Shown here: one piece after another, positions 14,726 through 63,529 of the stretch
How the letters are laid out: each line of letters opens with the position of its first letter
Position numbering within the stretch: the first letter of the stretch is position 1
Translations under genes and position numbers: made by a program
NCBI GenBank assembly: GCA_034231615.1
Contig: CM067298.1
Span: 3,291,834 to 3,355,833, forward strand
Length of the DNA stretch: 64,000 nt
Direction of reading: 5' to 3'
DNA from: Meghimatium bilineatum
Lineage: Eukaryota > Mollusca > Gastropoda > Stylommatophora > Philomycidae
The notes under the pieces: generated by a model
Database searches by the model: none
What the model saw: only the letters and a program-made list of their open reading frames with translations
What the model was told of the DNA's origin: nothing

Positions 14726-14853
14726 TGTAATATATGAAAGTCACTGTACAAAATATACTAACATGGCGCTTATCATTTTAGTGTAAACGAACAACTTCAC
14801 GTCATAATGGCAGTTTAACGATGACTCCCCCATTATTGTCAAGCACGAAAGAG

Positions 14854-15032
14854 TGTAAACTAGACTGGAGGGATGTAAACTAGACTGGAGGGATATAAAC
14901 TAGACTGGAGGGATGTAAACTAGACTGGTGGGTTTAAAGTAGATTGGAGGGGTGTAAACTAGACTGGAGGGTTTAAAGTAGGCTGGAGGGTTTAAAGTAG
15001 ACTGGAGGGGTGTAAACTAGACTTGAGGGGTG
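14854..15032 (+). repeat. 19-20-bp minisatellite
   Basis: About nine copies of a unit with GTAAACTAGACTGGAGGG and variants with TTTAAAGTAG. Confidence 0.88.
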
Positions 15033-15424
15033 TAATATATTGTGTGTAATCCACGAATGAAAGATATACATTTGCTATATACTAACGTTGGTGACACTGA
15101 AGCGATTTACCTGTGCTAATCTGGAAACGGACATACGTATGTAAGAAAAAAATAACCACCAAAAACTGGACACATAAAAGCACAAGAAAGACTGATCAAT
15201 AGATGTCAGCAGCGAAAACAGCTGCTAGTATAAACATATTATGTAGCCAGGTGGACTTGATGGAAATAAAATGTTAGGCTCGTATTTTATATTTACCAAG
15301 GGTATACTGTGCATGATGGGGTCAACATCACCACTACCGCCTCTACTTTTCCAGAAGATCTGGTACTATTTTTCATAGGTTGCGTTCACATAAGAGCCAT
15401 TGATTACTTAAATACTAACATTTA

Positions 15425-20574: not shown

Positions 20575-21405
20575 ACTGTACACGACACTTGCGTACAAAT
20601 CATGTACCAGGATTGTACACGATACTTGCGTACACATCATGTACCGGGATTGTACATGACACTTGCGTACAAATCATGTACGGGAATTGTACATGACACT
20701 TGCGTACACATCATGTACAGGGATTGTACATGACACTTGCATACACATCATGTACGGGGATTGTATATGACACTTGCGTACACATCATGTACGGGGAGTG
20801 TACACGACACTTGCGTACAAATCGTGTACGGGGATTTACAAGACACTTGCGTACAAATCATGTACGGGGATTGTACATGACACTTGCGTACACATCATGT
20901 ACGGGGAGTGTACACGACACTTGCGTACACATTATGTACGAGGATTGTACATGACACTTGCATACACATCATGTACGGGGTGTGTACACGACACTTGCGT
21001 ACAAATCATGTACGGGGATTTACACGACACTTGCGTACAAATCATGTACAGGGATTGTACATGATACTTGCGTACACATCATGTACGGGGAGTGTACACG
21101 ACACTTGCGTACACATCATGTACGGGGAGTGTACACGACACTTGTGTACACATCATGTACGGGGATTGTACATGACACTTGCATACACATGATGTACGGG
21201 GATTGTACATGATACTTGCGTACACATCATGTACGGGGAGTGTACACGACACTTGCGTACACATCATGTACGGGGATTGTACATGACACTTGCATACACA
21301 TCATGTACGGGGATTGTACATGACACTTGCGTACAAATCATGTACGGGGATTGTACATGTCACTTGCGTACAAATCATGTACGGGGATTGTACATGACAC
21401 TGTAC
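20575..21405 (+). repeat. 37-bp minisatellite, about 22 copies
   Basis: Unit of 37 bp with GACACTTGCGTACACATCAT and GTACGGGGATTGTACA. It starts about 40 bp after the preceding satellite. GTAC sites recur at fixed spacing and local inverted pairs (GTACATG with CATGTAC) could form hairpins. Confidence 0.96.
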
Positions 21406-29556: not shown

Positions 29557-30084
29557 GTTGTCTGTTCTACAAGTCCGGGACAGTAATAAGCTGTCAGACC
29601 TTAAGGGAATCAAACAAGAAGTGAGCATCCAAAGACGGGAAGTGCTTCAGTGGACACCATCCCACTGTGACATACTGGTAACTGAAGAGGCAGATATGCT
29701 TGGAAAAAATGGAGCAACAAAAGAACACAAAGACGAAATTACCTATAAGGAAAAGAGGGACCTTCATCAAAACTATTGACGACATCGACTACGTAAAGAA
29801 TAACTACCACTATCTAGATAGTGCTGAACATATTATATCTTCCACACCAGGACAGGGAACATTGTATTAAACAGTCCCTTAAATAGACTGCTTCCATTAC
29901 CCATGTGTCCATGGGAGAAGGCAGCACAGACTGCGGAACATACTCTGCACGTCACCATTACACTAAACCAGTAGAGGGTGGCGCACTGACCAATAAAGTT
30001 ATACTTTACAGAAAAATTTACGATAGACTAGAGGGGCTTTTAAATACAGCAGCATTTATCAAGAGACCCGAACTTGCTGTGTAG
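29557..30084 (+). pseudogene. I-superfamily LINE relic: RNase H end and C-terminus
   Basis: Plus-strand codons read DSNKLSDLKGIKQEV and QWTPSHCDILVTEEADMLGKN, which is the last RNase H motif, then a decayed knuckle (PMCPWEKAAQTAEHTLH). The frame RLEGLLNTAAFIKRPELAV then reaches a TAG at 30082-30084. The layout matches the ends of copies A and B, where [18 protein letters not shown] precedes the stop. Frameshifts and stops are frequent and RT is absent. A long minisatellite begins at the stop codon. Confidence 0.8.
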
Positions 30085-31864
30085 ACATGATAAAATAGAC
30101 TTGTTGTGTAGATGTTAAACTGGACTTGTTGTGTAGATGTTAAACTAGACCTGTTGTGTAGATATGTTAAACTAGACTTGTTGTGTAGATGTTAACAAGA
30201 CTTGTTGTGTAGATGTTAAACTAGACTTGTTGTGTAGACATGTTAAACTAGACTTGTTGTGTAGATATGTTAAACTAGACTTGTTGTGTAGATATGTTAA
30301 ACTAGACTTGTTGTGTAGACATGTTAAACCAGACTTGTTGTGTAGATATGTTAAACTAGACTTGTTGTGTAGATGTTAAACTAGACTTGTTGTGTAGATG
30401 TTAAACTAGACTTGTTGTGTAGATGTTAAACTAGACTTGTTGTGTAGATATGTTAAACTAGACTTGTTGTGTAGATATGTTAAACTAGACTTGTTGTGTA
30501 GACATGTTAAACCAGACTTGTTGTGTAGATATGTTAAACTAGACTTGTTGTGTAGATGTTAAACTAGACTTGTTGTGTAGATGTTAAACTAGACTTGTTG
30601 TGTAGATGTTAAACTAGACTTGTTGTGTAGATGTTAAACTAGACTTGTGTAGATGTTAAACTAGACTTGTTGTGTAGATGTTAAACTAGACTTGTTGTGT
30701 AGATGTTAAACTAGACTTGTTGTGTAGATGTTAAACTAGACTTGTTGTGTAGATGTTAAACTAGACCTGTTGTGTAGACATGTTAAACTAGACTTGTTGT
30801 GCAGACATGTTAAACTAGACTTGTGTAGATGTTAAACTAGACTTGTTGTGTAGATATGTTAAACTAGACTTGTTGTGTAGATGTTAAACTAGACTTGTGT
30901 AGATGTTAAACTAGACTTGTTGTGTAGATATGTTAAACTAGACTTGTTGTGTAGATGTTAAACAAGACTTGTTGTGTAGATGTTAAACTAGACTTGTTGT
31001 GTAGATGTTAAACAAGACTTGTTGTGTAGATGTTAAACTAGACTTGTTGTGTAGATATGTTAAACTAGACTTGTTGTGTAGATATGTTAAACTAGACTTG
31101 TTGTGTAGATATGTTAAACTAGACTTGTTGTGTAGACATGTTAAAACAGACTTGTTGTGTATATATGTTAAACTAGACTTGTTGTGTAGATGTTAAACTA
31201 GACTTGTTGTGTAGATGTTAAACTAGACTTGTTGTGTAGATGTTAAACTAGACTTGTTGTGTAGATGTTAAACTAGACTTGTTGTGTAGATGTTAAACTA
31301 GACTTGTTGTGTAGATGTTAAACTAGACTTGTTGTGTAGATGTTAAACTAGACTTGATGTGTAGATGTTAAACTAGACTTGTTGTGTAGATGTTAAACTA
31401 GACTTGTTGTGTAGATGTTAAACTAGACTTGTTGTGTAGATGTTAAACTAGACTTGTTGTGTAGATGTTAAACTAGACTTGTTGTGTAGATGTTAAACTA
31501 GACTTGTTGTGTAGATGTTAAACTAGACTTGTTGTGTAGACATGTTAAACCAGACTTGTTGTGTAGATATGTTAAACTAGACTTGTTGTGTAGATGTTAA
31601 ACTAGACTTGTTGTGTAGATGTTAAACTAGACTTGTTGTGTAGATGTTAAACTAGACTTGTTGTGTAGATGTTAAACTAGACTTGTTGTGTAGATGTTAA
31701 ACTAGACTTGATGTGTAGATATGTTAAACTAGACTTGTTGTGTAGATATGTTAAACTAGACTTGTTGTGTAGATGTTAAACTAGACTTGTTGTGTAGATG
31801 TTAAACTAGACTTGTTGTGTAGATGTTAAACTAGACTTGATGTGTAGACATGTTAAACTAGACT
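30085..31864 (+). repeat. 25/27-bp satellite grown from a LINE 3' end
   Basis: About seventy units with GTTAAACTAGACTTGTTGTG followed by TAGAT or TAGATAT. The first unit overlaps the LINE ending: GAACTTGCTGTGTAGACATG becomes GACTTGTTGTGTAGACATG. To the right the array stops at AAACGAGAAG, resembling the LINE 3' terminus. It shares unit and flanks with the array at 62728-63488. Confidence 0.95.
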
Positions 31865-32016
31865 AGCTTTTAGAGAAACTGCAAACGAGAAGTGAAAATT
31901 GACGTTGTCTTTCATTGACATACACACATTCTCACATGTTATTGCTCGTCCGTTGTAAGTCACGACGGCTATTCATACATATAAACACCCGCACATACAC
32001 CCTCTTTCACCTGCAC
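31865..32016. other. Unassigned sequence
   Basis: Short stretch between two arrays. Nothing is recognised. Confidence 0.4.
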
Positions 32017-42764: not shown

Positions 42765-43440
42765 TTATCTTCCACGTGGTGCATTTTCTGCGAGTGATTG
42801 TCCAACGTATGTTGCTAGAGTACTGTCAAAAACATGATACTGAGTGAACTGTAAAACTTTGCTGTATGGCGGTTGTATATGAAAAGTTCGATGATAAGTT
42901 TTTCCATGAAAGTTTAAAACATATGGACCTCGACCTTGACAATCCGTAATTTTTGCTCTAATTGACGCGAATGAAAGAGCGCTATTATCAGTGCGAATAT
43001 TCTCGCGAAAATGTGTGTATTTAGGGCGTGTAATATCAGAGAGCATCAGGCGTAGGAACTCTGTATACTCCAGCTTATTACCATGGATATCTTGTGGCTT
43101 AGGGAGCGTGACCTTTCGCCAACAACTTGTCAACTTGCCATCAGTCGTTCAAAAATGTTTTAGCATCACAGAACTGACATATAATATCGGAAATAAATTC
43201 CAGTTATGTGCAGCAATACGATCCTCAGCAAAATTTGCTGCTTCATTTGAAAATACTTGACTTCGACGCATTTGTGACAATGAGTGAGCCTCGGCATCTG
43301 CAGCTCGACGTCTCTTTGTTTGCTCAACAGTTTCATGCTGTCTGTGATGACATTGTTATTCTCTATTCATAGCTTGTCGATTTTCTTTTTGCGCTAGTGA
43401 TTCTAGCCTAGCTCGGCGCTGAAAATCATCATCCTTAACT
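42765..43440 (-). pseudogene. Helitron Rep/helicase N-terminal relic
   Basis: The minus strand first gives a basic stretch (RRARLESLAQKENRQAMNRE, then KRRRAADAEAHSLSQ), then a Cys motif (IICQFCDAKTF), KVTLPKP and FRENIRTDNSALSFASI. RGPYVLNFHGKTYHRTFHI and FDSTLATYVGQSLAEN follow. This order (basic repeats, zinc motif, FRENIR-x-N-ALSFAS, GPY-x-HG-x-YHR, DS-x-x-AT) is the N-terminal region of Helitron-like Rep-helicase proteins. There is at least one in-frame stop and a frameshift, and the Rep catalytic and helicase domains are missing. A 37-bp array abuts its upstream side. Confidence 0.75.
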
Positions 43441-55942: not shown

Positions 55943-56141
<199 letters not shown>

Positions 56142-56183
56142 TTCTTCTTCTTCTTCTTCTTCTTTCGTTCACTTGAAACATGT

Positions 56184-62419: not shown

Positions 62420-62697
62420 GTGGAGCACTGGACCAAAGAGACAGGTATTCACAGAAAGTTGCACGGGTGCACTGGCCCAAAGAGACAGGTATTCACAGAA
62501 AGTTGCACGGGTGCACTGGCCCAAAGAGACAGGTATTCACAGAAAGTTGCACGGGTGCACTGGCCCAAAGAGACAGGTATTCACAGAAAGTTGCACGGGT
62601 GCACTGGCCCAAAGAGACAGGTATTCACAGAAAGTTGCACGGGTGCACTGGCCCAAAGAGACAGGTATTCACAGAAAGTTGCACGGGTGCACTGGCT
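62420..62697 (+). repeat. 44-bp array grown from LINE codons
   Basis: About 6.3 copies of a unit with TGGCCCAAAGAGACAGGTAT and AAGTTGCACGGGTGCAC. In one frame the unit reads WPKETGIHRKLHG, which aligns with WPEETTLESKLYG near the C-terminus of LINE copy B. Confidence 0.9.
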
Positions 62698-62727
62698 AGC
62701 TTTCAAGTACAGCAGCATTTATCATGA
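62698..62727 (+). pseudogene. LINE C-terminal sliver between two arrays
   Basis: TTTCAAGTACAGCAGCATTT and ATCA match TTTTAAATACAGCAGCATTT just before the LINE stop at 30082. It links the two arrays to one element end. Confidence 0.6.
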
Positions 62728-63488
62728 AAACTAGACTTGATGTGCAGACATGTTAAACTAGACTTGATGTGCAGACATGTTAAACTAGACTTGATGTGCA
62801 GACATGTTAAACTAGACTTGATGTGCAGACATGTTAAACTAGACTTGATGTGCAGACATGTTAAACTAGACTTGATGTGCAGACATGTTAAACTAGACTT
62901 GATGTGCAGACATTTTAAACTAGACTTGATGTGCAGACATGTTAAACTAGACTTGATGTGCAGACATGTTAAACTAGACTTGATGTGCAGACATGTTAAA
63001 CTAGACTTGATGTGCAGACATGTTAAACTAGACTTGATGTGCAGACATGTTAAACTAGACTTGATGTGCAGACATGTTAAACTAGACTTGATGTGCAGAC
63101 ATGTTAAACTAGACTTGATGGCAGACATGTTAAACTAGACTTGATGTGCAGACATGTTAAACTAGACTTGATGTGCAGACATGTTAAACTAGACTTGATG
63201 TGCAGACATGTTAAACTAGACTTGCTGTGCAGACATGTTAAACTAGACTTGCTGTGCAGACATGTTAAACTAGACTTGCTGTGCAGACATGTTAAACTAG
63301 ACTTGCTGTGCAGACATGTTAAACTAGACTTGATGTGCAGACATGTTAAACTAGACTTGCTGTGCAGACATGTTAAACTAGACTTGCTGTGCAGACATGT
63401 TAAACTAGACTTGCTGTGCAGACATGTTAAACTAGATTTGCTGTGCAGACATGTTAAACTAGACTTGTTGTGCAGACATGTTAAACTA
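62728..63488 (+). repeat. 27-bp satellite grown from a LINE 3' end
   Basis: About 28 copies of a unit with GTTAAACTAGACTTGATGTG and CAGACAT. The left two-thirds have GATGTG and the right third mainly GCTGTG. It shares unit and both flanks with 30085-31864. The right edge (ACGAACGAGAAGAAGAT) resembles the LINE 3' terminus (ACGAAAGAAGAAGAAG). Confidence 0.96.
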
Positions 63489-63529
63489 CGAACGAGAAGA
63501 AGATCCCATTCCGTCAAAGGTTATATGAA

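Follow-up and report, generated by a model that had tools for sequence, protein, structure and literature searches.

How do two different minisatellites come to lie side by side in one locus? The question is raised by the window (the whole stretch of DNA that was analysed, 64,000 nucleotides of the Meghimatium bilineatum genome, C1:3291834-3355833 in an assembly of 1.61 Gb and 32 contigs), in which TRF identifies an array of 44 bp x 6.2 copies at 62425-62696 (99% matches) and an array of 27 bp x 28.2 copies at 62728-63488 (98% matches). A sequence-only reading had proposed that the 44-bp unit, the sliver that follows it, the 27-bp unit and the right flank are consecutive, collinear pieces of one LINE end, two adjacent segments of which were amplified separately. 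Alignment to a consensus of the LINE family and a survey of its other copies bear this proposal out: the two arrays belong to one short dead LINE copy, adjacent pieces of which were each multiplied.

One LINE end with two internal arrays

The consensus was built from 52 array-free copies, located through exact matches with a 23-bp marker, and was restricted to such copies in order to avoid circularity. The LINE end that it describes terminates in HWPTETDIHRKLYGSLEELSNTAAFIKKTGLAV and a stop, followed by ACATGTTAAACTGCGAACAAGAAGAAG; one open frame of the 52-copy consensus reads CPCGQAAQTAEHILQDCITLNQLREEHWPTETDIHRKLYGSLEELSNTAAFIKKTGLAV, then a stop and ACATGTTAAACTGCGAACAAGAAGAAGAAGAA. The locus at 62.7 kb, collapsed to single units, aligns to this consensus with a score of 99, compared to a maximum of 24 in 1000 shuffles, which rules out chance similarity. 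Each piece also scores above its own shuffle maximum (1000 shuffles each): the left flank together with the first 44-bp unit (41.5 versus 17), one 44-bp unit (31 versus 15.5), the sliver (27 versus 16, with dinucleotide-preserving shuffles), one 27-bp unit (19 versus 15) and the right flank (20 versus 14.5). Every piece of the locus is found in LINE order, between consensus positions 98 and 252. A family consensus with an end unlike either unit and unlike the sliver would have refuted the sequence-only proposal; the opposite is seen. No gap interrupts the 93-base alignment that spans the last 44-bp unit, the sliver and part of the 27-bp array, nor the 48-base alignment of the last 27-bp unit with the right flank; the gaps relative to the consensus are a single-base one in the left flank and one more at the artificial join of the collapsed sequence.

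Thus, the plus-strand segment 62401..63504 is the 5'-truncated 3' end of a LINE (consensus ~98-252, from the consensus alignment and blastn blocks), enlarged by two internal arrays that are assigned by TRF and unit scores. The 44-bp array consists of the LINE codons HWPTETDIHRKLYG and the bases after them. The sliver, a single-copy LINE segment from the LSNTAAFIK region, separates the two arrays at 62697..62728. The 27-bp array includes the final LINE codons, the stop and the start of the 3' UTR, and is followed by the AAG-type LINE terminus at 63480..63504; like the sliver, the terminus is identified by its consensus alignment score. These assignments agree with those made from the letters alone, with two amendments. 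The extent had been given as 62420-63488, but the LINE copy itself starts slightly upstream, at about 62401. The LINE origin of the 44-bp unit stands, but LINE copy B of the window, with which this unit had been aligned, is displaced as the parent of the arrays by a separate, abundant family that is nearer by consensus match.

The parent LINE family

The 23-bp marker has 5860 sites in the genome at no more than two mismatches (none for the reversed control), and the dispersed copies of the array-bearing family differ in the left ends of their matches, i.e., are variably truncated at the 5' side. This family is distinct from both LINE copies, A and B, of the window. A tblastn search with the LINE B protein detects matches upstream of the array at two loci (L021 and L030), with identities mostly of 30-56%, in keeping with upstream reverse transcriptase and RNase H in longer copies of the array-bearing family; the Pfam domains detected in LINE B itself, endonuclease, RVT_1 and RNase_H, describe this related but different family.

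Among 100 listed marker places, merged into 89 sites, 60 were fetched and scored for arrays inside the LINE end (period of at least 10, score of at least 100). Most ends (52 of the 60) are array-free. The eight array-bearing sites are L047, L061 and L093 with 27-bp units, L062 with 29 bp, L096 with 30 bp, and L079, L090 and L095 with 71-80 bp, types that are over-sampled because the marker occurs several times in them; L047 corresponds to the array at 30072 in the window. Two sites counted as array-free, L054 and L097, have arrays that begin at the outer edge of the LINE and are made of flanking sequence. The birth of minisatellites is difficult to investigate, as the ancestor that was not yet amplified has usually disappeared; the 52 unamplified copies sampled here serve as internal controls.

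Related arrays at other loci

Neither array of the 62.7-kb locus is unique, given that both units recur at other loci. A genome DNA search started with this locus yielded 1827 first-look candidates, 40 of which were scored, so that the resulting counts are lower bounds. With TRF and a unit filter, related arrays are detected at 35 of the 38 other fetched loci (L034, L037 and L039, with no TRF array passing the unit filter, were dropped); these and the two in the window make up the 37 arrays compared here. The second array-bearing LINE end of the window, on the plus strand at 29868..31900 (TRF, blastn, flanks read), has the 27-bp segment amplified: a consensus blastn match at 29868-30094 (79% identity) leads into an array at 30072-31864 (TRF period 25, 70 copies), beyond which lies the AAG-type terminus. 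The same LINE end gave rise to 27 bp x 309 copies (8.3 kb) at positions 718-9052 of L015 and to 34 bp x 157 copies (5.3 kb) at positions 2383-7729 of L033. The pieces amplified elsewhere are 29, 30, 34, 48 or 71-80 bp long; of two extra stretches, one contains a 48-bp repeat and the other, by eye, an 80-bp repeat.

Pattern searches extend this recurrence. The left edge of the 27-bp array is found at 16 sites (no more than three mismatches in 54; control 0), whereas the array-free form, searched at equal length, is found at 119 (control 0). For the 44-bp junction there are 99 occurrences, distributed over 30 loci, and at 15 of these the spacing is a multiple of 44 +/-1; joins other than the searched one would escape because the pattern fixes the junction. 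Among all fetched loci, the repeated 44-bp segment is present only in the window's own locus, L001.

The edges of the arrays bear on how they came to be where they are. LINE C-terminal sequence lies directly upstream of 23 of the 37 arrays (alignment end no earlier than consensus position 201, score of at least 15). Examination by eye of the downstream side finds a clear AAG-type terminus in 27 and a doubtful one in 3, whereas 6 have none and 1 is unreadable (N). The 14 arrays outside the group of 23 have no upstream LINE by alignment, with a short remnant visible by eye in L023 and L027; some of these may have been inserted already repeated, or may have lost their edge. These 14 arrays, the 6 with no recognisable 3' terminus, and L012, which begins mid-unit yet ends in a LINE tail and is hard to derive from the insertion of a single unit, are what would be expected if the arrays were carried by retrotransposition, as tandem units present in the LINE RNA or made during target-primed reverse transcription and then spread by truncated copies. 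Such transport is unlikely as the general explanation: array-bearing copies do not cluster on the tree described below, arrays are concentrated towards contig ends, in contrast to the single copies, whose distribution is compatible with uniformity, and an automatic search for target-site duplications beside the arrays detects none that is convincing.

Tree and divergence of the arrays

The tree comprises 48 LINE ends, namely, 13 bearing arrays of 27 or 29 bp, 33 single ones and 2 others that were left uncounted. The array-bearing copies show no clustering on it (34 of the 45 inner branches are open): the array label changes 11 times, compared to a mean of 11.4 after shuffling, and 232 of 500 shuffles are as low. 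The tree is therefore to be read as giving no sign of a common source, not as proof of independence, because it is poorly resolved and the 62.7-kb copy is absent from it. A single common source of all arrays is left without support from the tree, and it is the 14 arrays with no upstream LINE that keep transport of ready-made arrays under consideration. Taken together, the recurrence of the arrays and the lack of clustering favour separate births in place, plausibly through slippage between short direct repeats.

Divergence within the arrays is consistent with this at the locus in question. In the 62.7-kb array, the divergence of the 27-bp units from the array's consensus is 0.3% (calculated from 14 of 28 units), whereas 4 of the 27 sites of this consensus disagree with the LINE, which points to expansion after decay of the LINE copy. 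At several other loci, the divergence within the array equals or exceeds the difference from the LINE unit. In the pattern matches, 44-bp units at other loci have variants that are common within one locus and different between loci.

Position along contigs

Array-bearing ends are over-represented near contig ends, an observation that is new here. Within 3.5 Mb of a contig end are found 6 of 8 arrays compared to 2 of 52 single copies in the 60-locus sample, which covers C1 to C8 only (Fisher 1.5e-5); within 5 Mb, 11 of 16 arrays from the matched pattern search compared to 14 of 100 listed single copies (out of 119; genome expectation 15.5%; Fisher 1.3e-5), with 3 of the 16 also among the loci of the locus DNA search. 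The single copies themselves are compatible with a uniform spread along contigs (KS p 0.26). The locus DNA search contributes 40 loci, including two in the window; for 22 of the 40, the distance to a contig end is at most 5 Mb. For the 44-bp type, the corresponding counts are 9 of 17 multi-hit loci versus 2 of 13 single-hit loci (p 0.057).

Other measures do not fit a simple gradient, as is also the case for these 44-bp counts. The 71-80-bp junctions are spread evenly along contigs (KS p 0.81 for 9 of the 11 loci), and the 37 arrays are not significantly longer near contig ends (rho -0.22, p 0.19). The density of other minisatellites around array loci does not rise towards contig ends (Spearman -0.01), in a test of restricted range because all 38 loci bear arrays or were fetched for them. 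The surroundings of array loci are rich in minisatellites: 96 were counted in 168 kb, and 4 in the 22.6 kb of flanks from the survey (p 0.012), although the latter count may be too low given the shortness of these flanks. The window itself contains 49 minisatellite arrays (period of at least 10, score of at least 100) that occupy 20.2 of its 64 kb. It is located 3.3 Mb from a contig end, but its distance from the true telomere is uncertain because the nearest end, the left one of C1, is not TTAGGG. Of the six contig ends fetched, four have TTAGGG or CCCTAA, one is N, and the left end of C1 has another tandem repeat, of the CACTGCTGCTACTAGTGTCGCTATCTCAGCTATGT type (L109, C1:1-500).

The concentration near contig ends could also be produced by spread between chromosome ends, through subtelomeric segmental duplication or ectopic exchange after a few original births. 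One case of duplication is apparent: L021 and L030, both on C12, have similar flanks on both sides and are grouped at 100/100. No other pair of array-bearing copies is starred on the tree, however; the remaining array loci differ, by eye, in the sequence beyond the LINE, and the 44-bp units are locus-specific, so that such spread is improbable as the source of the arrays at large.

Short direct repeats and the proposed origin

In the array-free consensus, GGAGC recurs at a distance of 44 bp and AAAC at one of 27 bp; in some copies, e.g., L067 and L097, the former repeat is GGAGCACTG. The closing partial unit of both arrays at 62.7 kb sits at its native position in the LINE, which implies that the short repeats predate the arrays. 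Pooled over 8 types, the homology at junctions has a p of ~4e-4, a result that is suggestive only because four anchors were chosen by hand and the 30-bp type shows no homology.

Birth in place, thus, probably accounts for the locus as a whole. A 5'-truncated copy of an abundant LINE would have been inserted and would then have decayed. Replication slippage or unequal exchange would then, as the most likely mechanism, have duplicated two adjacent segments of its end in situ, with the short direct repeats that the LINE already contained (GGAGC.. for 44 bp, AAAC.. for 27 bp) as substrate. The two duplications would have grown separately into minisatellites, in what appears to be the part of the chromosome where such LINE ends most often expand. 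The arrays would be by-products, with no evident function. This account is supported by the collinear alignment to an independent, array-free consensus, by the unclustered arrays, the locus-specific 44-bp variants, the native closing units and the position effect, and by the low divergence of the 27-bp units in the 62.7-kb array relative to their difference from the LINE. It is weakened by the 14 arrays lacking upstream LINE, the high divergence within arrays elsewhere, the poorly resolved tree, the limits of the junction analysis and the even spread of the 71-80-bp junctions, as well as by the share of human TE-derived tandem repeats, ~6%, that two known birth models explain according to one study (PMC3389668).

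A further proposition has about an even chance of being correct, namely, that the LINE end acts as a pre-cut template in which fixed short repeats choose the piece, repeatedly the 27- and 44-bp ones, and the position relative to the chromosome end decides whether it expands. If so, thousands of near-identical LINE ends would constitute a natural genome-wide assay of the rate of minisatellite birth by position. The present data show which pieces amplify, and also the repeated use of these pieces and the dependence of the outcome on the distance from the contig end.

Relation to known systems

In the model of Haber and Louis (1998), minisatellites are born between short flanking direct repeats, and a link to transposable elements has been made (PMC6947457, PMC3389668). 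As in that model, which names transposable elements as a substrate, the unamplified ancestral form is found at other loci (52 of 60 sampled ends; 119 single-unit versus 16 array sites), and the segment between short direct repeats may have become the unit. What differs is that many unamplified copies are still present as controls and that separate loci have amplified the same unit. The SINE-derived satellites of squamate reptiles (PMC10702118), with their subtelomeric preference, are similar in being tandem repeats of retroelement pieces, with a remnant at the array edge, several units per element, and subtelomeric arrays of an evenly spread parent element. The same preference is seen here for the arrays, within 5 Mb, relative to the uniformly spread single copies (11 of 16 versus 14 of 100), but the element is a LINE, the unit is 25-80 bp, and two separate arrays occupy one copy. 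Satellites from LINE 3' ends, namely, chicken HinfI from CR1 and a cetacean satellite from L1 (PMC9659126), likewise derive their unit from the 3' UTR and the end of ORF2; in contrast, the present arrays are short minisatellites dispersed over many loci rather than a single large family. Human VNTRs with units longer than 15 bp are concentrated within 5 Mb of the ends of chromosome arms, 21-fold for GC above 60% (PMC7608644); the enrichment over the same distance is shared, but here it involves one LINE family, units that are not GC-rich, and array-free copies for comparison. Thus, TE-derived minisatellites and SINE-derived subtelomeric satellites are already known, and the present case is a clean, well-controlled example rather than a new system; a literature search, consisting of short listings with most subscription journals outside their coverage, returned no report of it.

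Other features of the window and loci

LINE copies A and B of the window also adjoin tandem repeats, and the ends of both lack an internal array: a 37-bp array (20577-21401) lies just 3' of LINE A, ~110 bp past its stop, and TATC repeats (55943-56142) directly follow the AAG tail of LINE B. At L036 (after 3486) and L041 (before 2375), an apparent inverted AAG-type LINE tail adjoins the array, and that in L036 runs on into a LINE B copy. The array at 14853-15035, with TGTAAACTAGACTGGAGGG-like units, has AAACTAGACT in common with the 27-bp unit but appears to be a look-alike, not a further LINE-end array, given that the consensus has no blastn match there. The minus-strand ORF at 42765-43148 resembles what we take to be a Helitron protein.
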